DNA of 23,297 nt, from the NCBI GenBank assembly GCA_000310025.1, contig FN649758.1, forward strand, positions 3,980,852 to 4,004,148, given 5' to 3'. This document shows, piece after piece, positions 9,644 to 23,297 of this stretch. The notes under the pieces were generated by a model, which made no database searches, had not been told where the DNA came from, and was given only the letters and a program-made list of their open reading frames with translations. Position 1 is the first letter of the stretch, and every line of letters begins with the position of its first letter. The position numbers and the translations under genes were made by a program. The stretch is from Ectocarpus siliculosus. Lineage: Eukaryota > Sar > Phaeophyceae > Ectocarpales > Ectocarpaceae.

Positions 9644-9996
9644 CAAACATGCGTTGAAGCTCATGAAACGCGTTGAGAACATGATACCCTTGGAGGATCA
9701 AGCGAAAGAAACAAACCGATGGCCCGTGTTCAACCTCGACGACACCGAGAAGGTGGACTACCATGTCCATGGCAAAACGTGAGCGTCGAGGTTTCTTGGT
9801 GTGCTAACCCGCGCATTTACTCTATTGACACGTTTCCAGTGTCCTGGACGAGACACCAGCATGGACGCCCCCACGGCTGCTGTAAGCACGGAAGAGCCCT
9901 ACTGCATATCAATGTTCCCGGGCTACCACAAGTAGTGAACGACATTGTCGGAGTGCGCTCATAAATTTGACCATTGTACACAGAGCGAGCGAGAGG

Positions 9997-10083
<87 letters not shown>

Positions 10084-10970
10084 CGTAACAGAAGAAGGGA
10101 AAACATACTTGTAACTCTATATGATCATGGGAGAGAAGATGCAGGGTAGGTCTCAGAAAGGTTTCTCGTACGTAATAAACAAATGACAACACCAAATTGC
10201 TAGCCTACCCCTCCTCTTTGCCCATGACGCAGAATGACAAAAGCTATTGAGGAGCAACTGCGGCACTGGAAAACTTCCCGGATGGCGAAGCGGGTAACCA
10301 AGAGAGGGGAAGTGCAAGCAGGCCCGCGAACGGACGCGGACTGTAGCAACACAAGCAGTATCAATTGCAACAGTAGCAGAAGCAGCAGCAGCAGCAGCAG
10401 TGAGAGCGCTACCAAAGGTGGCGGGTGCAAACATGAGACCCCCGATATGCTCGACGCCACCGCCGCCTCCTCCTCGTCAGCCGTCACCGCCTGCATGCCC
10501 CTAAAGGCCCTAAAAGGGGTCCTTGAGCCCGTTTTTTTCCCAGCTTCTGGCGCTCCAGCTTCGACCGGCGAGAGTCTCGCCCAGTCGGGCCAGATCAAGA
10601 CCGGCGTTAAGGCCAACGGGATGCACGGGAGGGTGGTGGGTTCGGTGGGGGCTACGGGGGCGTCTTCGGAGGGCGGGGTGTGCGGGCAGGCGGCTGCAGA
10701 AAATTGTAAGGAGAGGAAGGAAGGTAGCGAGGCGAAGGGTCTCTCGGAGGAGAACCCCGAGGTGGAGGTGGGGGATGGTTTCGACGCAGGGGCGGAGGCA
10801 GAATTGTCGAGGGCGGTGACGGAGCGGGACGTCGAAGGTGACGGCGATAGTACCGTGGGGCTGAAGGGGGAGAAGGGCGCTGACTCTGACTCGGTGGCGC
10901 CTCGTCAAGCTGGAAAGTTGCTCAAGACGGAACAAGGCAAATCCTTTCGCTCGGATAACAAGGGAATCAC
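9644..10970 (+). CDS. Unrecognised multi-exon protein (partial model, three exons)
   Basis: Three exons fit in phase: 9644-9778, 9840-9881 and 10233-10970. Acceptors are GCCCCGCAG, GTTTCCAG and CATGACGCAG; donors are AC|GTGAGC, CT|GTAAGC and AC|GTAAGC. Every junction is in phase 2. The joined product begins KHALKLMKRVENMIPLEDQA (first ATG 9663), continues VDYHVHGKTVLDETPAWTP through the 42-nt micro-exon, and then reads MTKAIEEQLRHWKTSRMAKR. The rest of exon 3 is Ser-rich (AGC repeat near 10380) followed by Gly/Glu/Ala-rich sequence, probably disordered. I recognise no family. The first intron is only 61 nt; the second holds a GA/GACA microsatellite. The gene continues past 10970, and the phase fits either 11567 or 11893 in the FNIP region. 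True 5' and 3' ends are unknown. Evidence is splice logic only; a pseudogene cannot be excluded. Confidence 0.5.
9996..10082. repeat. Compound microsatellite (GC)n-(GA)n-(CAGA)n
   Basis: A short alternating GC tract (to 10010) runs into about 26 GA dinucleotides (10011-10062) and then CAGA tetranucleotides to 10082. It lies in the intron between the 42-nt exon and the large exon of the unrecognised gene. Length polymorphism is likely. Confidence 0.95.
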
Positions 10971-11566: not shown

Positions 11567-12841
11567 CGTCATGGAGGCGGCCCTCATGATCGTGATTCAA
11601 CAGCTTTATGTGTGGACCAGGGACCTTCAGTGCTCGTCACTGACGCTCAACGAAGCATGCCGGCGCGCACCGACTTTGGTGGTGATGGTTGGTGGAGGCT
11701 ACATGCCACTCGAACGCCTGGCTGGCAGCAAGAAGAACCACGAGGCCGGAGTGCCCCCGGCTATGGCCGGCGACATGATGACCAGGCCAGGCCTCATGCC
11801 GGAGTCAAAAAGGGTACCTCAAATACTTCCGCGCGGTCTGGTGTGGTGCCTGCCCCTGGAGGCGTTCGGACAGGGTGACGTTGACCTCCCAGTTGTGCGT
11901 ACCTTCGACTCACCGAGGCAGCCTATCTGCCGGACGACTTGAAGTTGCCGGCGTCTATTGAGCACCTGGACGTTGGGGACGAGTTCGACCACTCCATCGT
12001 TGGAGTGAAGCGGCCGGCAGCCCTGAAGCGGCTCGACTTCGGTATTGCTTTCGACAAACCTATCGTCCAAGTCGCGTGGCCAGCCTCCCTACTGCGCCTC
12101 CAGTTCGGTAGTCATTTCAATCAATCCCTGGCCGAAGCCGCGTGGCCGGACTCGCTGCTGCAGATCGAGTTCGGGTATGCGTTTAACCAGTCGATCGCAG
12201 TCGACTGGCCGGCGTCGTTGTGCGAGCTAACCTTGGGGTCTAACTTCGACCAACCAATTGCCGGAGTCACGTGGCCGCCTTCGCTACACCGGCTCCACTT
12301 GGGTGGTGATTTCGACCAATCGCTCTTGAAGGTTGTGTGGCCACCCACACTGTAGCGCCTCCAATTCGGGTATGGCTTCAACAAGCCTATCGCCGGAGTC
12401 GCCTGGCCATCTTCTCTGCAGCGCCTCCAGTTCGGCAGTTATTTCAACCAACCGCTCGTGGCGGTTGTCTGGCCGACCTCACTGCTGAAACTCGAGTTTG
12501 GGGAATTTTTCAATCAGCCCCTCGCCGGAGTCACATGGCCCTCGTCGCTACAGGACCTAGAGTTCAAAGTTGAATTCAATCATTCCCTCGCCGGAGTCGT
12601 GTGGCCGCCTTCCCTGAAGCGGCTCAAGTTCGGTTTCTACTTCAATCATCCAATAATCGGAATCGGATGGCCTTCATCCCTACAGCACCTAGCGTTCGGT
12701 GGGGGATTCCACCAGTCAATCGAACGAGTTGCGTGGCCGCGCTCGGCCCTTGTTCTGAAAATGACCATTTGGGATAAGTGGCCGCCCTCGTTACCATCTC
12801 TGTTGTTTAACGGCGAGGTTTTTCACGAACCAGAAACGTAG
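11567..12841 (+). pseudogene. FNIP-repeat protein region, interrupted by in-frame TAG
   Basis: From 11939 one frame encodes about 12 repeats of 22 residues with consensus near SLQRLQFGSYFNQPIAGVTW; FN, FD or FH followed by Q/K/H and then P or S marks each repeat. This is the FNIP repeat (leucine-rich-like, named from Dictyostelium), a probable protein-interaction solenoid. The frame is stopped by TAG at 12353-12355, where neighbouring repeats read CTG CAG CGC CTC CAG; the same frame then runs open through six more repeats to TAG at 12839-12841. A C-to-T change of one CAG codon would explain the break. Upstream, this frame is closed by a TGA near 11880; an acceptor (GACCTCCCAG, 11892) or a frameshift must link it to the other frame open at 11571-11942. 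Alternatives are a genuine gene ending after six repeats, an allelic nonsense variant, or a sequencing error. Confidence 0.6.
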
Positions 12842-14932
12842 GAATGGCAGGAATTCACGTCCTTCTTACCCCTAGTGTTCATTGCAGCTTTTCGACACGG
12901 TCTACTGGGCTACACAATGAAGACTACGGCTTTAGACTTCAAGGTAATATTACTGGATGATCGACCGACCTATGCAATAGTCCTGGAGGTGGTGGAAGCG
13001 CTGAAGAATCACTACCATAAGCGTTACCATGGCAGCGTCTGGGGACAAGGGCGGTCGGGTGGCAGTATAATGAGAAGGACTAGCCAGCCGCTTTTGTTGG
13101 TATGGCGGACAACATGATCGCGATGTTTGCGTGCCGCCACCGAGCATGTCGAGCAACGCCACCTGTACCATCACCTCCCATCATATCCTTCCACGCCTGC
13201 TGTATCTACTGGATCGGCTCGCGTAACACTTACAAAAGTGTCCGCATTGTGATAGCGTATCCAACACGAAAACAACACGCCACGACCTGCTCGCTCCAGC
13301 AGCCCAGGTCAAGGACGCATTCAGACTGGAGGCCTTGAGAGCAGCACCTGCTGCCATCAACAGCACCTCTTTCTGTCACGTGGCCAAGTAGATACTCAGA
13401 TTGTGCACGTGGTGTACCGATAACCAACGAAGTTGGCACTAACACAGGCAGCCGCTGTGGTGTCAATCGGGATGCGAGGATTGCTTTGAATGTATTGATA
13501 TGTTGAGACATGAGGATAGTTGAATGGAGCTCAAAGGTTTTATTGGGATTCTCTTAGAATGAAAGACGGTGTGGTGTACATATGTAGATGAATTCTAGTG
13601 GATCTATTGTACAGTATGCATACATGAAACTACGGGGAACGATTGCCCCCCCGCCCCTCAGTGGCCAGCACGGGCGGGGTGGCGGCGGCGGTTCGATAGT
13701 CAGAGGAAGTAGATGCGATGGTGACATCGCTAAGCAAGAAAGGTAAACTAAGTTGGCTTTCCACAACGTCCGTTGCGTGGATAGGTGGTTCCGGCAAAGG
13801 AAAAAACGAATGGATTTGTCGTGGAAAGGCCGATGCCCGATCAACAAACGTAAAGCGGACGGAAGACCGGGGTGGGAAAAGTTGTGAGAAGGGAATTGGG
13901 AAAAGACGAAAAGACGACGCTCAATGAAAGTGATGACAATAGGTACGGGACCGTTGTCAACGGTGGTTCTGTCGGCGTGAGTGAAGTTTGCGGCGGTGTC
14001 CTTACGTGCGACAGGGGTACGCGCATTCGCTACAGTAGTGACAGCACATGCCCAAGCGTCGCAGTGGTCCTACGTGAATGTAGAGAAAGCATACACATGT
14101 GTACAAACGTTAAGGTAATCGTACTTTCATTGCATTGCGTCTAATTGTTGGATGTGCTTGATGCACATCGCAGATGAAAAAAGGCTGTGGCGAATATATA
14201 CGTAGGGGCGCTAACTGCTGTACGGTGTCGTGAAATACTCCGTACACTCACGTACTGTATGCCGTTACACAAAGGTACCAGTAGTATTCAATCATTGGGG
14301 TAGGTCCTGAGCAGTAAACACATTGTCCTTGAAAAGAGCGAGATCCGCTGTTTTTTTGCAGGATTATAAAAGGATGAAAGAAAGGCGCAGTCGGCGCAGT
14401 CCTGTGTACAAGTGCTGGTATTACTGTAGATACAGCAGTGGTTTGGCCAGCTGGCGCTACACCGCGACACCGAGGGGCCCTTACTGTAACTGGAGAGACG
14501 TCAGAACGATTTGATGCCAAAGTTCAAACGCCATGAGCCCATCAGCCAAGCATCAGCACAACAGATGCCCCATCGTAACGTACGAGTCTCGCTGCTCGGG
14601 ACGTTAATTGCGCCGCTTTCCCCGAACCGGCACACCGGCACCACAAGAGAGGCCCCGCGACCATTCGGCCGCTGCACCCCCCCCCAACTCCTGTATCCGT
14701 CGACGAACCACATCTTGTTGCCATTGCATCTGCCGTCAGTTGTGTGCTGGTTTGTCTAGGCCTGCCACTACCCAAGCTGATCGCTACTTCCTTTGCGACG
14801 TGACCAGCTGCGTACCTTTAGCCCCAGCGTTGGCAAGCCATTCGAGCGCTCGCCGACGTGAGCGACGGAAGAGGAGGAGAGCAAGGACACGCAGCAGGCA
14901 TCATCGATCAGCAGCTGCAGAAGCGGGCAAGG
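12842..14932. other. Intergenic DNA and probable 5' UTR of the TUG-PUB gene
   Basis: No supported exon. Short open frames at 12875-13117 and 13718-13927 have no recognisable similarity. There is a C/G-rich patch near 13648-13692 and a C-run near 14679. The last roughly 100 bases before 14933 are open and GC-rich, consistent with a 5' leader, but no promoter element can be assigned with confidence. Confidence 0.45.
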
Positions 14933-16164
14933 ATGAGCAGCACCGCGCTCACCATCCTGCACGGTGGCCACCGCAAGGTCACGCGTATCGGGGCCAATGA
15001 CAGCATGAGCACCGTCGTGCAGGTAGGTGTGTTGTTGCACGGCCCATCCCGCAACAACGGCCCAGTCAGTTTTTGAATCAGTCTCAGGGCAGCGAAATTC
15101 CGCCGCAGGACGAATTTCCTGTGTTTCTGTCGATCTCGATCGGAGCGGTTCTATGATCATGGCAATTAGGCAGGGGAGCTAATGCCTGGAGAAGGTGGTA
15201 TGGAGATCGACCCTCCCAAAAGCACTTGTCTTGTTAGGTTAGAAAGGTCTATTCCCGAAACTAAAGTAGTCACCTATCCCTATTAGGACAAAAGTTTTCA
15301 TCACTGTCAACTGCTGGGGACTAGACTATGTTCTGCTGGTTGCATACCGATTTAGATCTACAGAGTACTTGGCTTCTGAATGCTGGAAAATATACGCTCG
15401 AAGCAGTCCCGATTCATTGACACCTGTCAGGTAGTTGGCTTCATTGAGTCTGTTGACGTCCTTACAATGTAAGACCCGATACTACCAGCCGCGGATTGGA
15501 TGTATGTTTGGATGCTAAATATGTGTTAAGGGTTAGCATTGACCGCGAATACCTAACGGCTGACCAAATGCAAGAAAGAGGCGTGAAAGCCCTCCGGTTC
15601 GAGAAGGGAAAGCTCTCGGCATGATGTTTCCGAATCCACCCTTTATTTCGGGATCGTGCCCTCTTTGTGGTGGAGAGTGTAGCGTTGGAAGCAGGTCTAG
15701 AAAGGTGTGCCGTCGCTCACAAACTTGGTCCAGAGAGCATGCACGCGGAATACAGTAGTCACGATATACATACCCGATCTCCGCAGATCAATGTGCCAAA
15801 ATCAGCTGGAGGGCATGGTTGCTATCAATGTTATTGATTTGCGTGTATGGTTGTGCGACAGCGACGCGATGCGAGGGGTCACAACTCCGCACACCAACCC
15901 AGCCAACACACGGAGCAGACTGTCACACAGATTGTCGGCGGCAAGGCAAAACTATGCGGGGAAGTTTGTACGCCTCTCCCCTATCGCCTCGCTCACTGCC
16001 TTCCGCCTCTTCATGTGCACTTGGTCGTGCAGATGGCCTGCAGAGAGTTCGGACTGGACACCGGGAGTCCCAACTGGGTTCTCAAGCACAAGCGGGTGGT
16101 GGTGGACCTGAGCCAGCCGTTCCGCTTCACCGGCATCCCCCAAAACGCTACCCTAGAGCTTACG
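14933..16164 (+). other. TUG-type N-terminal ubiquitin-like domain (UBL1), exons 1-2
   Basis: Exon 1 gives the first beta-hairpin (TALTILHGGHRKVTRIGAND) and ends VVQ. After a 1010-nt intron, exon 2 continues in phase 0 with ACREFGLDTGSPNWVLKHK, then VVVDLSQPFRFTGIPQNATL and ELT. The order beta-hairpin, helix with C-x3-FGL, a K-x2-VVDLSQPFRF strand and LPNNA-like IPQNATLEL is the signature of the first UBL of TUG/ASPSCR1. Exon 2 ends ACG|GTGAGA. Confidence 0.85.
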
Positions 16165-19100
16165 GTGAGAAATCCCTTGGTGTCAGAAAGCAACCCGGCA
16201 TATAGAAGCCGAAATCAAACCAATAGACTAGTTGGCCATGCACATGACCGCTTTCTAGAGGAGCACTCGTTGCAGGGCGTCGGTTTCGCTAGTGTTTGGG
16301 GAGCGAATGTCGGACAGGTAGAGACTTGCATAACGTCGTTGATTCCGGCAGAGCACTTGCGTTCCTACTTCTGGCCTTCAAGCGGTAGAGCGACCAAGAG
16401 ATGTTTCTTTCGGAGAACACGCATCTTGGAGTGAGGCGTGGTGGTCGGGACGTCGGATACGTTTTTTACTTTCGAGATTTGACGGGAGTTCATGAAAGGA
16501 AGCGGCCCTCGCCGAAGCATTCCTTTAGCGCCTGCCGTTCATCCCCCCTCCTCCCCAAGATGTGTGTACCTTTTGCCGATTTTCTGGAGGGCATGCGTAC
16601 AGGAAGCAGCCCTGTCGGAAGCACGTAGGCGTCACTAGCTAGCGTCCATGCGCCCACCCCGAGTCTTTAGTTGCTCCCTCACGTTCGCACACGGTTTGTT
16701 TGTTGGGGGCGCGGTGGTGAATATCCACTGACAGGAAGAAGCCCCGGTGAGGCGAAAAGCGGCGGGCTCCACGTCTGCTGGGGGTCAGGTGAGTGTCTCC
16801 CGCTGCTGTTGTTCTTGTCGTTGGTGAGCAGGTGGAAATTGAGTTGCTTCATGCTTCCAACCCAGGTCCAACACGTTAAGATGGCACACACGGTCTCCCT
16901 CAAGTTGCTGGGGGCGCTTGGTTATTGTGGAAGGGTGCCTGTTGTGGTTGCATTTTGGTTGTGCTGCGCACACAAAGATCGCACTACTGTAGCTGTATCA
17001 TTTTGGTTGTGTTGCGCACACAAAGATCGCACTACTATGCGGGCATTCAGCAGTTGTAGCACGCATGCTCGCACGGCGTGTGTGTTGTCCTGAAGGCGCG
17101 TCGGCACGTTCCTGTTGGTTGTTTCTATAATTTTGGCCCATGTTTTTTATCATTCACGGGGAAGGTGAGGGTTGCGATGCGACTACCCGGGGGGGGGCGG
17201 GTCCAGGCGCCATTTTCGGCGGACACTTCCCTGCTGGGCCTCCTGCAGTGGTGGGCCGGCCGAGGAGAGCTAGACGCAGGTATGTACGTCGCCGTTTGGT
17301 GGGTTGGTGTGACCGTGTGTCCCGCCTATGCTTGGACGTCGCCCCATTTTTTTTTTTCGTGAATATGTAAATATTACTTGATTGAGTACACAACAAACCC
17401 ATTTCTATCCATAGGTACTTGTAGGGGTCTAGGATGTTGTATGTTGTGTTTCCATGAAAGCAACGGCGCAGTTAAATTAAGTATCTCGTACCCCCCCCTC
17501 CCCCCCCCCGCGCGCGCGTTCGGTCCGTTCTGTGTGTCTCGACGACGACCCCGCTTTTGCTGTCTGTCCCTCTTTCACGTCTTGCTTTGCTTTCGGAAGG
17601 CGTCCTCCAACAGGGGCCCTCGCTGCAGTTCATGCGCACGGCGTACGGCGCCGGAGACCTTGACGCGACCACCCTCCGCTCTATCGGGCTAGTCAGGTGA
17701 GAAGTTGCTTGCCTATCATCCCGTTGCTGATTGACGGTGGAGATGTGATGGCGCTGCTCCCGTGTTTTGGGTGGTGCCAATGCTTGCGGTGCTGCTGGTG
17801 CTATTTGTCGGCTACTTATATGGAAGTGATGAACTACAGGTCTTGTTGCTGCTATTAGGGGTTTGACACAGCAGTCTGCGACGACCCCTTCGGCCGCTTT
17901 TCCCGTAAGTTCTGACCAAGGCTGCTGTACTCCCGCTCCCCCCTCCCCCCTTCCCCATGTTCTCTTCTTCCTCTTTCTCTCTCTCTCTCTCTCTCCCCCT
18001 CTCTCGCTCTTTCTCGCCCATCCCTCCATCAGAGGATCTGCGATGTTCACCCTCAGCCTGTCTTCTCCAGGCGCCGCCGGCGCTGCAGCAGTACCGCTAT
18101 CATCATCATCATCCAGCGCGGCTGCGTTGCCACCGCCCCCCGGCGCTGGTGCTGATGCTGGTTCAAAGGCGAGCGCTCGGGCCAACCTTTGCCTTTGTTT
18201 TTTCCTCGCCCTGCTGTCAGTCAACTCATTCCCTAGTTTGCTGTGATTTTTTTTTATGTTGCGGATTATCTGTGTCCGTTTGATTTTGTATGGGGACCGT
18301 GCGCGAAAACGGTCGCTGCGTGACTCGAATCGAATCCATTGGTGATTTCCTTTCTCCTATTGTTGCCCTCTTTTCTTGACGTGCGTACGCGATCGGTCAC
18401 GTCAACTTGGTCTTGATCTTGATCTTCTTTTTTCGCCAAAAGCCCACCTTTTCACCCTACGACACACGCATCCCCCCCCCCCCCCCCCGCCTGACCGCAA
18501 AAAAATGACCGCTGGTCGAAAGCAGCAGGAGGAGGCGGACCTTCGTGAGGCAATCGCCCGCAGCGCGGCCGAGGCGCACCCCACAACGGCGAACGCGATC
18601 GGCGGCGGCGGCGGCGGCGGCGGCGGTGCGTCAACGACGAAGGCGGCCGTTACACCGCCAGCATCGTCGCCGCTGTCGGGGATGGCGGGCAAGGAGGCGG
18701 CGACGTCACGGGCGGCCCCAGCCGCTGCCGGTGTTAGTACGGCAGGCGCTCCACCGTCACCAGCAGCAGCAGCAGCAGCAGCAGCTGCAGCTGCAGCAGG
18801 CGCGAGCGCAGTCACTCAAGGCGTCGCGGCGGCGGTGACGGCGGGGGGGGAGGGGGGGCGGCAGGCGGGGGCGGGCGGTAGTGCGCAGGGAGAAGCCGGC
18901 CAGGCGGACGCTATGGAGGTTGACCAGCCGTCTGTTCCGGCCATGGGCGTTGAGTGAGTGTAGAGCACCCTGCATGGACTCATGTTGTTTGTCCCATAGC
19001 CTTTTTTTGGTTGTTTTTGAAAGCAGGACATTAATATTATTCATGGCCATCAATATTTTGAGGTAAGAGTCCAGGGTGCATTTGCGATGAGTTCATGTTT

Positions 19101-22100
19101 TTTTATCTGGCACCTACCTGTGGCTGTACCACCCTCCCGCAAGCAACACACATACTTTTTGGGATTTGTTGTTGTATCGGGGTGAAGCCAGAGCGGCCGA
19201 AAAAGTCGCCGTTGCCTGGTGCTTTTGAGATGGACGTTGGGGGAGGTATTTCAGCGAAAGCGCTTGAAGTGATGGTTCGGGGCCACAGAGGATGACAGCC
19301 AGCTATCAAGAGGCTTGCACGATGCGCTTGTCCATTCTACGCTACGTTTGACTGTCCCAGGTGTCATGTCTATTTATACAACTTGGGGGTGCAGACCGGT
19401 CTAGGGTGCCCTCTGCAGTGTTTCTTTCACCCCTGCGGAGTGTTTTTTTTTCAGTTGTCAGAGTGCAGGGGGACTTCAGTGGTGGGGCAATATTCCGATG
19501 GTGAAGCCCGGGGTGATGGGATGGCCTGTGTGATGTACGCCTCGTGTGTTTGGGTAAATAAGACACGCACTCACGGAACAGCAAACACCGAATGTTGCAT
19601 GTATCCCTTTTTTTAGGGTATTTTTGTATCTTTCGAGCGGGGTGATGGACTACTGTGTGTTTGGATGATTAGAGCGCACCCACAACAGGAAGAACCGAAT
19701 GATTGCGTGCGTTCATCCCTATCTTTGTTGTAATGGAGAACGGCTCGTTGTTGTTCCTCCGGAATGCGTAACGTCTGCCCCCCCCGTGTTCCCAGCGTGT
19801 GTCGGGCTGCGCTGGAGGCCATGGCGGCGGGACACTTCGACGCGGACAGCGAGGCCTGCGTGACAACGCTCGCCAAGGTCATCGACAACGTCGTTCACCG
19901 TCCTGGGGACTCTCGGACGCGGCAGATTCGCTGCGGGAACGCGGCGTTTCAGCACAAGGTATTTTGTGTGTATGCAGGTGTTCGGCAAAGGTGTGTTGTG
20001 TTGTGTTGTTGTTGTTGTTGTTGTCGTCGATGGCGGTGTGTGATATTCGGAAAGGGGACGGTGCCGGCGCTGCCGTATTTTATGCCTTTACTTTTCGATT
20101 GATGTTTATGGCGTTCGTCCAAGACCCAGAGTTGGTGGTTGAGGTGGGGAAACGCGGCGTTTCAGAAAAAAAGGTATTGTGCATGCATGTGAATCGCGGG
20201 TATTGGTCGGCAATTGGAACTCAAACTGCCGTTGCCCTTGTTCCTTTGTTGTTTTATCGATGTCGATGTGATATTTTTTTCGAAGAGGCGCATACACACC
20301 CGCGCTGCCGGGTCATTTTTTGACAGATTTTTTGGACATTCGTCTAGACCTAAAGGCTTGAAGCGGTGTGTGTGTGTGACCGATGCCAGCAGGGAACCTC
20401 CTCACGCGATTTGTTTTGTCGCGGAAGTCAGTCTTCGTTCAATCAACTCCCAATGATAGAGATAGCAGGTGGCGCGGTCGTTTAACAGCAGCAGCAGCAG
20501 CAGCAGCACACAGCAATAGCAGCAGCACCAGCAGCGGCAGCAGCACCACCAGCACCACCAGCAGTATTGCGTGCTTATTTCATGATTTCGGCCTTGCCAT
20601 GCTGTTTGTTTTGCGTGTACCCGCGCGAATGGTGTAGGTAGGCCGCATCACCGGAGGCATTTCGTTCCTAGAAGGCGTCGGGTTCGTGTCCCGAGAAGAC
20701 GGACCGCAGCAGCAGCAGCAGCAGCAGCAGCTCTTGAGCGGTGGCGACGGCCGCGGCAGCGCGGGGGACAGGTGAGTTTTGCTGCTGACTGATGGGGGAG
20801 TGATTTGATTCTCCACGTTATTGTTTTGTCGAGAATACATCAAGCTGAACAACACCCCGACCAGTGTGTTTTCTCTCGAATGCAGCGGCTATTTTCCAGT
20901 ACAGTAGAGCTGCTCCGCCCCCTGTCATTTACCGTAGGGGACACGAGATGTCACACCTCCTCTAGGTCGATCTTTTCGAAGCTCGATTACTCCTCAGCAC
21001 AGAGTGCGGCGGTGCTGAAAATGGCGGCGTTGGAAGCGTATCGTCGAGAGCTTTCCGAAAAGGTATCGTTTGACTTTGGCATCCACCCTCTTCTTCGTCG
21101 TGGAGTACCTGACCCTTGAAAACCGGTTCAGGTCAGGGTGTGTGGTATTTTGTGTCACCTGCGGCAGTAGTTGAGGGGCGCGAGGTCATCGACCAGACGA
21201 CCGAACGGGTTGCCCAGGGAATAGGCCCGCGCCGCAGGGTATCTCTCTTGAAGCGGTATGTAGTAGTCTAGTTGGCTACAGCTCCGGTCAATCTTGCTTG
21301 TGTAGCAGGTTATCTTGAGGCATGAAAATGTCCACCTCGCTGTACTGCTGAAGGCTCCGTACAACCTTGTTTGTGCACCAGGCTCATCAAAAAGGGTGCT
21401 CACGATGTAGTCAAGTTCGGGACGGCGAGAGGGCCCCGGTCAAGCGTTGTTTCTTCCGCTTCTTGTCGCTCACGCTTTCTTTAGGTTTCTCGTTCTCCCA
21501 CCCGAGCGCGAGGACGCTGGTCTCCTGAAAGCGGCGAGGGACCTCCTGTCCAAGCAGGCGGAGGCGCTGGGGGTGCCCCGGGAGCGCATGCCTCAGCCGC
21601 CTCGGGTTCGTACTTCTCCGCCGCCGCGTTCCGCGGGGCAGGCGTCTGCTGCTGCTGCGTTTGACCCGTACAAGGTGGGGCTGGTTTTGTCGTTGCTGTT
21701 GCTGCTGTTGTCGTCCATCGTTCCTTGTGCTTGTTTCCGTCGCCGTTTTGCCGATTGATTGACGCTGCTTTTGCCAGTTCAAGGCGTTTGGTTCGGCCGG
21801 TGCCCTATAGCCTTCGATCCGTGGATCTGTCTTTGGGTATCAGCGGCGGTCATCTCTGATGGGTCGAGGCATTCTCTCTCGACATAGCCGTCTGGCCTCT
21901 TCTTGTGTCAAGAACCACCAACGACAGCAGCAGTACCTCTCTTGAGGGCACCGCTGTTGTCTCCGTCCCTGTGCTGCCGGTGCCACCTGTGCAACCTGTC
22001 GCCGATATACCTACTCAAGCACCATTCTATTTTCATGCCCCTCGCGTGCTGCTCTCTCCGCTCCTCCCCACCCACGCGATGAAAACGTCTATTTTCCCCG

Positions 22101-23297
22101 CGCGACGATTTCACACGGGTCTGTTGTTGCATCGCCCAGCCCTACCCGCCAACGCCGTACATCGTTCCTTCCCTCTCCGTCCCCCCTTTTGCTCACCGAA
22201 ATCCGCTGGAATGCTCTCGGGGGGTGGTGCGCATGGATCATTCAGCCCTTCATGACGTCCACGGCGCCCACTCCGAAGGGCCCCCAGGAGTCATCCCTAA
22301 CGGAGAAACGCCTGCAGGAACTCCTCGCCAAGAGGGCGGCGGTGGTGTCCGGGGGGGCGCCGCAGGATCGAAACATTCAGGCGAGGAGACAGACGTCTTG
22401 GGTGCATGTATCGCTGCTTGTCAGCAAAGCGAGCGGTAGGGGATTGTGTGTGTGTGGAGGGTACTGATGTCTTGGATGCCTTTGCTGCTCGGCCGTTTAC
22501 CACCCACGTCCTCGAGAGGTGAGAGACAGTCATCTAGGTATCTGTCGCTAGTTGTCAGGGCGCGTGCAAAGCTTGCAAGCACGGTGAGGGAATGCATAAA
22601 AATTGAGAGGACGGGTGGGGGCATGGCGTCGCGTAGTCATGATTTGCGTGCCTTGGTTGTTTAGACTAAATACATGTTGACCACACGCGTCCTCGAGAGG
22701 ACTGAGCCGGAGGGGGAATAGCTGAACAAGGGGGCGAGTGGGGAGAAACCCCTACTTCCTCGCCATCGAAGGCAGACGTGGTGCTGTCGAGGCGTTCTTG
22801 ACCTGACCTAGGGCGAGAAGCGAGTGCTTCGTTTTGTTTCTGGCGGAGCGTACCCTTCCAACAGCAGTGTACGTACGAAAACTGCTGTCGCCGATGTTTG
22901 TTCGGCACCAGTATGGTGCGTATCAGAGTTGCCATCGCGCGCGGGGTGGGTGTGCCAGAACCTGGATGATGCAATTCGTTTTTAGCGCGCACGTGTCGCG
23001 CGAGTCGTGTCGCATGCGTGCGGGGGCAGGACGAGGGACGAACTTTTTTTTTGTAAAGGATCGCACCCTCTATGGTATGCGAAAACCTGGAACAGAACTG
23101 TTCTCGAGAATCCTTGTGTTTTTTGGCGCAGACTGCTTGTGAGACCATCCTTCCGGCTGCTGTCTCTACTACATATTCCATTCCCCATCCCGTTCCGTCT
23201 TCCGTCCCGTCCCACGACACCTACCCCCATGTTCTTTATTCTCTTCTGCGTACCCCCCCCCCCCCCAACCCACCCCCTAGTTGTAATTCCCTTCCAG
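14933..23297 (+). CDS. TUG/ASPSCR1-like p97 adaptor with UIM and PUB domain (3' partial)
   Basis: Ten exons join with consistent phase: 14933-15022, 16033-16164, 17165-17279, 17600-17696, 18033-18168, about 18526-18953, 19796-19958, 20638-20771, 21485-21674, and 22246 to about 22380. This gives about 540 residues. The start is the ATG at 14933 (MSSTALTILHGGHRK), placed as in other TUG proteins. Order: UBL1 (residues 5-74), UBL2 (75-155), Ser/Pro/Ala linker, UIM-like helix (about 192-206), Ala/Gly-rich linker, PUB domain (about 333-465), Pro-rich linker and a basic helix. TUG/ASPL proteins and PUB proteins are known partners of the AAA ATPase p97/VCP (Cdc48) in the cytosol. This product is therefore inferred to be a p97 cofactor that may also bind ubiquitin. 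The window ends on an acceptor, so the C-terminus (a UBX domain would be expected) is not visible. Two introns appear to use GC donors. The gene is isolated, with no overlapping neighbour. Confidence 0.85.
15023..16032 (+). other. Intron 1 of the TUG-PUB gene
   Basis: GT-AG, 1010 nt, phase 0 (CAG|GTAGGT to CGTGCAG). I see no embedded gene or RNA. An open frame at 15847-16032 is only the read-through upstream of exon 2. Confidence 0.75.
16165..17164 (+). other. Intron 2 of the TUG-PUB gene
   Basis: GT-AG, 1000 nt, phase 0 (ACG|GTGAGA to GGGGAAG). It contains the 48-bp tandem duplication listed separately. A repeated AGGAAGC phrase (near 16497, 16609 and 16733) recurs without clear meaning. 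Confidence 0.75.
16951..17036. repeat. 48-bp tandem duplication in intron 2
   Basis: CATTTTGGTTGTGCTGCGCA at 16951 recurs at 16999 as CATTTTGGTTGTGTTGCGCA; both are followed by CACAAAGATCGCACTACT. The period is 48 bp with one mismatch over the 38 bases compared, so the duplication is recent. Confidence 0.95.
17165..18100 (+). other. Second TUG ubiquitin-like domain (UBL2), exons 3-5
   Basis: Exon 3 encodes VRVAMRLPGGGRVQAPFSAD and LLGLLQWWAGRGELDA. Exon 4 (phase 1, GGC split codon) encodes PSLQFMRTAYGAGDLDATTL and RSIGLV. Exon 5 (phase 2, AGA split codon) closes the fold with GSAMFTLSLSS. The pattern V-R-V-A-x-x-L, then TLRSIGLxxGSA, matches the second ubiquitin-like region of TUG/ASPSCR1. 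Phase agreement over two junctions supports all three exons. Confidence 0.82.
18526..18953 (+). other. Exon 6: UIM-like helix and Ala/Gly-rich linker
   Basis: The exon opens with QEEADLREAIARSAAEA, which fits the ubiquitin-interacting motif pattern (acidic start, then L-x2-A-I-x2-S-x2-E). The rest is low-complexity: a Gly run from GGC repeats (18601-18627), an Ala run from CAG/GCA repeats (about 18762-18798), and a Gly-rich segment. The acceptor lies after a 17-C tract; AG at 18522, 18525 or 18528 all keep phase 0. The donor is GA|GTGAGT at 18954 (phase 2). Ubiquitin binding is inferred from the motif alone. Confidence 0.62.
18954..19795 (+). other. Intron 6 of the TUG-PUB gene
   Basis: GT-AG, 842 nt, phase 2, with a C-run and CCCAG acceptor. 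An open stretch at about 19190-19290 (GAFEMDVGGGISAK) lacks a usable donor and was not called an exon. Confidence 0.7.
20146..20190 (+). repeat. Near copy of the exon 7 / intron 7 junction
   Basis: GGGGAAACGCGGCGTTTCAG followed by A-rich AAG|GTATTGTGCATGCATG closely follows the real junction at 19935-19979 (GGGAACGCGGCGTTTCAG, CACAAG|GTATTTTGTGTGTATG). The copied donor sits at 20174, 215 bp downstream of the real one. This suggests a short local duplication that carried a splice donor. Confidence 0.7.
20485..20564. repeat. Imperfect CAG/CAC microsatellite in intron 7
   Basis: CAG units with CAC, CAA and CGG interruptions over about 80 bp. It resembles the CAG runs that are translated as Ala in exon 6 and Gln in exon 8 of the same gene. 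Confidence 0.9.
20772..21484 (+). other. Intron 8 of the TUG-PUB gene
   Basis: GT-AG, 713 nt, phase 2 (GACAG|GTGAGT to CTTTCTTTAG). It contains a 97-nt exon-like segment (20966-21062) with good splice sites that would shift the frame; see the findings. Confidence 0.72.
21675..22245 (+). other. Intron 9 of the TUG-PUB gene
   Basis: GT-AG, 571 nt, phase 0 (TACAAG|GTGGGG to GATCATTCAG). A GCTTTTGCCAG acceptor at 21778 would give FKAFGSAGAL and then a TAG stop, so it was not used in the model, though a short isoform ending there is possible. Confidence 0.65.
22246..22380 (+). other. Exon 10: linker and basic helix before the missing C-terminus
   Basis: The acceptor GGATCATTCAG continues exon 9 (FDPYK) in phase 0 with PFMTSTAPTPKGPQ, then a helix TEKRLQELLAKRAAVV. 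F-D-P-[FY]-K followed by P is a common linker motif after PUB domains. The end is uncertain: CAG|GCGAGG at 22381 would be a GC donor; GTs at 22402, 22407 or 22436 are weaker or less consistent alternatives. Confidence 0.6.
22381..23297 (+). other. Intron 10 of the TUG-PUB gene, ending at the window edge
   Basis: It starts at the putative GC donor after 22380 and runs to the final base. The end is a 14-C tract (about 23252-23265), a second C-run, and TTCCCTTCCAG, a strong acceptor whose last G is position 23297. No other exon is supported inside. Confidence 0.6.

Follow-up and report, generated by a model that had tools for sequence, protein, structure and literature searches.

TUG (ASPSCR1, ASPL or UBXN9 of animals) and UBXD1 (UBXN6) are both described as proteins that carry a UBX-lariat unit and inhibit p97, and the reported outcomes differ, in that ASPL dismantles p97 hexamers whereas UBXD1 opens the ring with the aid of added tethers (PMC10716044). 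The structured domains named for TUG are UBL1, UBL2 and UBX, and its UBL1-UBL2 region is described as mediating association in trans (PMC12218103). The combination of PUB with UBX is already known from UBXD1, PUX2 and LiPUB3, as is that of TUG UBLs with UBX. Here we describe a locus of the brown alga Ectocarpus siliculosus at which TUG UBLs and a PUB domain lie in one series of exons. It is contained in a window of 23,297 nucleotides, meaning the whole stretch of DNA that was analysed (GCA_000310025.1, contig FN649758.1; C33:3980852-4004148), within a 189-Mb genome of 492 contigs. The last nucleotide of the window directly precedes a run of 1,100 N nucleotides, and sequence resembling the C-terminal half of a TUG-type UBX is present on the other side of this run. 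On balance it seems probable, though by no means secure, that the locus is one TUG/ASPSCR1-family gene with a PUB inserted ahead of the UBX, and that this PUB has probably departed from the usual binding of the CDC48 tail.

TUG-type and PUB exons within the window

A preliminary description of the locus had proposed a phase-consistent series of UBL1, UBL2, UIM-like helix, Ala-rich linker and PUB. This series holds, as evident by exons between positions 14933 and 22401 of the + strand that share one phase, and by matches above cut-off to PF11470 and PF09409. The exons were read from AG/GT splice sites and phase, and joining exons 1-12 yields a 590-residue protein for the part of the gene in the window. 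With this protein, the TUG-UBL1 family (PF11470) scores 69.2 bits (E 3.3e-19, cut-off 23.3) over residues 9-73, and the exons assigned to PUB are matched by the PUB profile (PF09409) with 54.5 bits (E 1.1e-14, cut-off 34.3) over residues 369-431. No Pfam family beyond these two is found at E up to 10. When the genome was searched with the TUG-UBL1 profile, the sole match at E up to 1 was exon 2 (C33:3996869-3997012; 60.8 bits); a missing match in this search is not proof of absence, and among 14 control genomes E. coli gave a match below cut-off. At an E-value limit of 10, the 590-residue protein has 12 matches in the PDB. The PUB accounts for three UBXD1 entries (best 1.3e-4) and for five from PNGase (best 0.0065), UBL1 for a single TUG entry (2al3, E 3.4e-4), and the other three, at E 0.74 or more, are unrelated.

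The two remaining elements were assigned by other means. UBL2 has no Pfam match at E up to 10, and shares 27 of 86 residues with a UBL2 segment of human TUG (BLASTP E 2e-7 for this single comparison). The UIM-like helix has the sequence EEADLREAIARSAAE and conforms to the strict UIM consensus, which also turns up in 4 of 20,000 shuffled versions of the protein. A looser core motif is present in 782 of 5,000 shuffles and therefore means little by itself. This short motif matches no Pfam family at E up to 10, either as a 25-residue piece or within the whole protein. The consensus Ac-Ac-x-x-h-x-x-A-h-x-x-S-x-x-Ac is given for PUX7, PUX8, PUX9 and PUX13, which are described as binding ATG8 (PMC8181520). 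Because the helix fits this consensus, ATG8 and ubiquitin are equally good candidates for its partner.

The open frame that holds the start codon (ATG 14933) extends from 14822, with a stop ahead of that position. Exon 1 (14933..15022) carries the start and the first part of UBL1, the remainder of which is supplied by exon 2 (16033..16164; AG/GT sites, phase 0), the site of the genome match to PF11470 (window 16018-16161). A short linker between the UBLs is assigned to exon 3 (16735..16788) from sites and phase only, and the first and second halves of UBL2 fall in exons 4 (17165..17279) and 5 (17600..17696), for which sites and phase are joined by the comparison with human TUG. Exon 6 (18033..18168) holds the end of UBL2 and a Ser/Ala/Pro-rich linker, and exon 7 (18526..18953) the UIM-like helix and an Ala/Gly-rich linker. 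The PUB core, with V379, N382, T392 and N399, is encoded by exon 8 (19796..19958), and the domain continues into exon 9 (20638..20771; GGISFLEGVGF), which also carries a Gln run. All of these exons, and the three that follow, lie on the + strand.

The end of the PUB depends on how exon 10 (20966..21062) is treated. This exon is doubtful, and is possibly skipped or non-coding. Use of exon 10 places the start of exon 11 at 21507, and direct joining to exon 9 places it at 21485; exon 11 ends at 21674 and contains the end of the PUB (FLVLPPEREDAGLLKAARDLL with exon 9 joined) and a linker to FDPYK. The direct junction of exon 9 with 21485 keeps the phase and reads GDRFLVLPPEREDAGLLKAARDLL. Without exon 10 the PUB score is 60.7 bits instead of 57.6, and coverage of the 82-position profile extends from 4-62 to 4-72; this exon is perhaps skipped in splicing, used alternatively or not a true exon. 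Placement of the 21485 acceptor right after exon 10 was rejected, as it yields a stop. Exon 12 (22246 to about 22401, donor not fixed) reads PFMTSTAPTPKG...EKRLQELLAKRAAV and is a candidate region for the lariat helix. The GC fraction at third codon positions (GC3) is 0.73 for the coding sequence, 0.81 for exon 8 and 0.80 for exon 9, and the introns have a GC content of 0.52. The window gave no matches when scanned against Rfam and for tRNAs.

A putative UBX half beyond the N run

In L002, 314 bases past the N run, an exon with a clear acceptor (L002 1764-1881) reads FELYVSPPRVVLKAASSLSDAGLVPAALVYVSWREVPPTG and joins in phase a further exon (L002 4726-4970) that ends in GKPSWLKIN and a stop at L002 4970, about 3.5 kb past the N run. 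A 54-residue piece of this sequence (FELYVSPPRVVLK..GLVPAALVYV..) was compared with 177,635 PDB sequences, and all four of the matches at E up to 10 are PUX1 or TUG (E 0.02 to 0.2). With all 120 post-gap residues there are seven matches, headed by PUX1 (0.014). TUG accounts for three of them (0.37 to 0.44), and the remaining three are unrelated sequences, two of which (E 0.44 and 0.72) lie near the TUG scores. When the three aligned pieces are combined into a profile, it recovers its own members PUX1 and TUG, followed by p47 (0.02 or weaker) and UBXD1 (1).

Two short features agree with these matches. The predicted C-terminus, GKPSWLK, has the K-P-x-W-L/F-K pattern of the TUG/PUX1 tail, a pattern that we take to be present in TUG itself, and aligns with KPKWFK of PUX1 (PUX1 238-250), an alignment that is not significant alone. 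The S3-S4 loop of the UBX reads SPPR, resembling TPPK of TUG/PUX1, and is not the serine-glycine-glycine described for the UBX of UBXD1 (PMC10716044). From these comparisons, with their modest scores, we read the post-gap piece as half a UBX of the TUG/PUX1 type.

The PUB pocket and the CDC48 tail

Tail binding by PUB domains is attributed to a YxxN(x)9Y motif, both tyrosines of which are called essential (PMC6995525). The best PDB match of the PUB encoded at this locus is the UBXD1 PUB (E 2.1e-5); in the genome search, exon 8 matched the PUB profile at C33:4000699-4000830 (window 19848-19979; 38.8 bits, cut-off 34.3), with the match extending 21 bases into the intron. The alignment with UBXD1 is ungapped over the pocket, and the chain numbering agrees with that published for K180, Y181, N184, K193, Y194, K198, N201 and R207 (PMC6995525). 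Relative to UBXD1, both pocket tyrosines are replaced (Y181 by V379 and Y194 by T392), such that the motif is lost, and both asparagines are retained (N184 as N382 and N201 as N399), as are the basic rim residues R391, R396 and K405. For the UBXD1 PUB, the dissociation constant (KD) of 13.8 uM is reported to rise to 111 uM with Y181A, 28.4 uM with Y181F, 53 uM with Y194A and 141 uM with Y194F. PNGase carrying K50A/Y51A is described as retaining binding in a qualitative pulldown (PMC6995525), and weak tail binding by the window PUB may therefore still occur.

The CDC48 of this genome on C11 (C11:5453697), located with a piece of p97 as query, ends in DNDDDVDDLYG and carries the canonical DLYG tail. 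A second CDC48-like C-terminus (C241:520086; E 0.045) ends in EDEDEDLFG, and we presume that this copy is possibly plastid-associated. Given the pocket residues, binding of the CDC48 tail by the PUB is doubtful. Binding of CDC48 driven by the UBX is likely.

Loss of pocket tyrosines is not confined to this gene. The PUB profile has 13 matches in the genome, ten of which are above cut-off and three of which contain a stop that possibly reflects reading into an intron. The pocket was aligned in nine rows, comprising UBXD1, the window PUB and seven of the other 12 matches, with five partial or stop-containing matches left out. Both asparagines are invariant (9 of 9 rows). The first tyrosine is present in UBXD1, L004 and L010 and is V, I or M in the other six rows, including the window gene. 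The second is present in UBXD1, L003 and L005, is F or V in five rows, and is T in the window gene only. None of the eight aligned E. siliculosus rows has both tyrosines, and L008 (C15:962945), outside the alignment, reads YLRNVLNHPDDVKY with the full YxxN(x)9Y motif. The pocket change is common among the PUBs of this genome and therefore has less special meaning for the window gene, and the doubt about tail binding is unaffected. The 13 PUB and four UBX matches do not establish that the genome has a UBXN6 gene as well, as only C6 has both kinds, about 154 kb apart; splitting of the domains by exons may hide one.

Another of these PUB genes, L005 (C1:338800-347800, minus strand), when read by eye from its frames, appears to join a ubiquitin-like domain, a PUB, Asn-Pro repeats and a UIM-like C-terminal end (EDELIAEAIRRSMED followed by a stop). 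We take the repeats to be STI1-like and the end to be UIM-like, and the whole presumably resembles a ubiquilin containing a PUB. Elsewhere in the window, positions 11900-12850 hold tandem FNQPLAGVxWPxSLxxLxFG repeats, seen by eye and assumed by us to be LRR/FNIP-like, in which a TAG at about 12353 appears to lie in frame; long GC, GA and GACA simple repeats occupy positions 9990-10085.

Competing readings and relation to known proteins

We favour one intron-rich gene because TUG-type parts flank the PUB exons on the same strand and in compatible phases. Such a gene would be expressed as a single transcript from window 14933 across the N run to the stop at L002 4970, and would encode UBL1, UBL2, the UIM-like helix, a disordered linker, PUB, UBX and the WLK tail. 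Its product would most likely work like TUG/ASPL and PUX1, with the PP loop of the UBX placed on the N domain of CDC48/p97. If a lariat helix is encoded in the unread part, the hexamer might be inhibited or taken apart, and the UBLs would be expected to self-associate or to tether. For a PUB that lacks the pocket tyrosines, the usual grip on the CDC48 tail appears improbable, and another ligand, as with the SPATA2 PUB, seems likelier, or else a weak grip on the tail.

Several points weigh against this reading. The model is read from genomic sequence; exon 6, with a GC3 of 0.49, is not coding-like by this measure; and exon 10 is doubtful, with two options for the acceptor of exon 11. The junction of exons 6 and 7 is in phase only with a GC donor after 18168 or with a Pro-rich GT-AG alternative (GT after 18160, next exon from 18443) that also keeps the phase, and an unspliced exon 6 meets a stop (18246) ahead of the in-frame ATG (18505) of exon 7. 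In addition, the PDB E-values of the UBX half are weak, the presumed N-terminal half of the domain falls unread in the N run, and the post-gap piece, as half a UBX only, matches no Pfam family. Lariat homology was looked for with 88 residues of exons 11-12, which match nothing in the PDB at E up to 10; part of the region is in the N run. The UBX whose presence downstream had been considered possible is found in part, as a C-terminal half that we read as of TUG/PUX1 type. The UBX family PF00789 has no match at the locus in a genome-wide exon-wise Pfam search. This search gave two PF00789 matches at E up to 0.001 and four at E up to 10 (C16, C2, C6 and C20), all above the bit cut-off. The missing match at the locus would be expected if the N-terminal half is in the N run, since the remaining half is short.

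The features of exon 6 can also be read as a boundary between two adjacent genes, one encoding a UBL1-UBL2 protein that ends near 18246 in a frame open to that stop, and the other a UIM-PUB-UBX protein that begins at ATG 18505 ahead of exon 7. An in-phase junction does depend on the GC donor or the 18160/18443 alternative, and PUX1 is described as a TUG-like UBX protein without UBLs (PMC8181520). However, the downstream UBX half and the tail resemble those of TUG/PUX1, a second TUG-UBL1 is unmatched in the genome, and both options for the exon 6/7 junction keep the phase, and we regard two genes as quite unlikely. Far less probable still is that the PUB exons are nested in a TUG gene, or are a decayed insertion, and do not contribute to the protein. 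Three of the 13 PUB matches in the genome have an internal stop, but exons 8 and 9 are open, phase-matched to their neighbours, coding-like in GC3 and above the PUB cut-off.

A different question is what a single protein would do. The preliminary description had proposed a composite p97 adaptor, and the arrangement on which it was founded stands, in the form of TUG UBLs and PUB in one exon series followed by half a UBX; its suggestion that p97 could be engaged at the C-terminal tail by the PUB has become doubtful, given V379 and T392 in the pocket set against a DLYG tail that has been kept. In its full form this proposal has the UBX on the N domain and the PUB on the CDC48 tail simultaneously, as in UBXD1, with the UIM on ubiquitin. 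UBXD1 is indeed described as gripping p97 jointly via VIM, PUB and UBX (PMC10716044), and the pocket asparagines, the basic rim and the DLYG tail are all in place, but the loss of both tyrosines makes simultaneous engagement unlikely, as mutants of either residue in UBXD1 are reported to weaken binding at least to a KD of 28.4 uM.

Returning to one TUG-family gene with an altered PUB, a bolder suggestion, which we offer tentatively, is that a single protein unites the UBX-lariat families TUG and UBXN6, as a relict of an ancestor that the two families had in common or as a lineage-specific graft, with its PUB freed from the p97 tail for another ligand. If true, a TUG frame with a PUB would allow one to ask whether PUB tethering decides between ring opening (UBXD1) and dissolving (ASPL) of p97, and whether the TUG and UBXN6 families share an ancestor; the lost pocket tyrosines provide a clear and cheap prediction. 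The union of TUG UBLs with PUB is undescribed in the titles and abstract openings of the papers listed by our searches of the open-access literature, a poor source for domain arrangements. Viral contigs with PUB, UBL1 and UBX-half queries, and genome contigs with a UBL2+PUB query and a two-row UBL1 alignment, gave pattern matches of which none was confirmed as a relative; these viral and prokaryotic collections are uninformative on spread.

Among described proteins, TUG shares with the Ectocarpus gene the TUG-UBL1, UBL2, a disordered middle and apparently, on modest scores, the type of the UBX half, and the Ectocarpus gene adds the PUB and UIM-like helix between UBL2 and UBX. UBXD1 shares the apparent order of PUB then UBX, whereas it has a VIM, the serine-glycine-glycine loop and an intact YxxN(x)9Y pocket, which in Ectocarpus is altered; to our knowledge UBXD1 is without TUG UBLs. 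Arabidopsis PUX1 is the best match of the UBX half, and is said to lack additional domains (PMC8181520). PUX2, also of Arabidopsis, is similar in having PUB and UBX, together with a stretch described as resembling the lariat of PUX1/ASPL, and differs in its zinc finger and as an exception in the S3-S4 loop motif (PMC8181520). LiPUB3 of Leishmania infantum (LinJ.36.0140) is described as having UBX and PUB in one protein, these being the domains named for it (PMC7403338). The PUB of SPATA2, a different protein, is described as having a valine in place of the first pocket tyrosine, as does the Ectocarpus PUB (PMC6995525).

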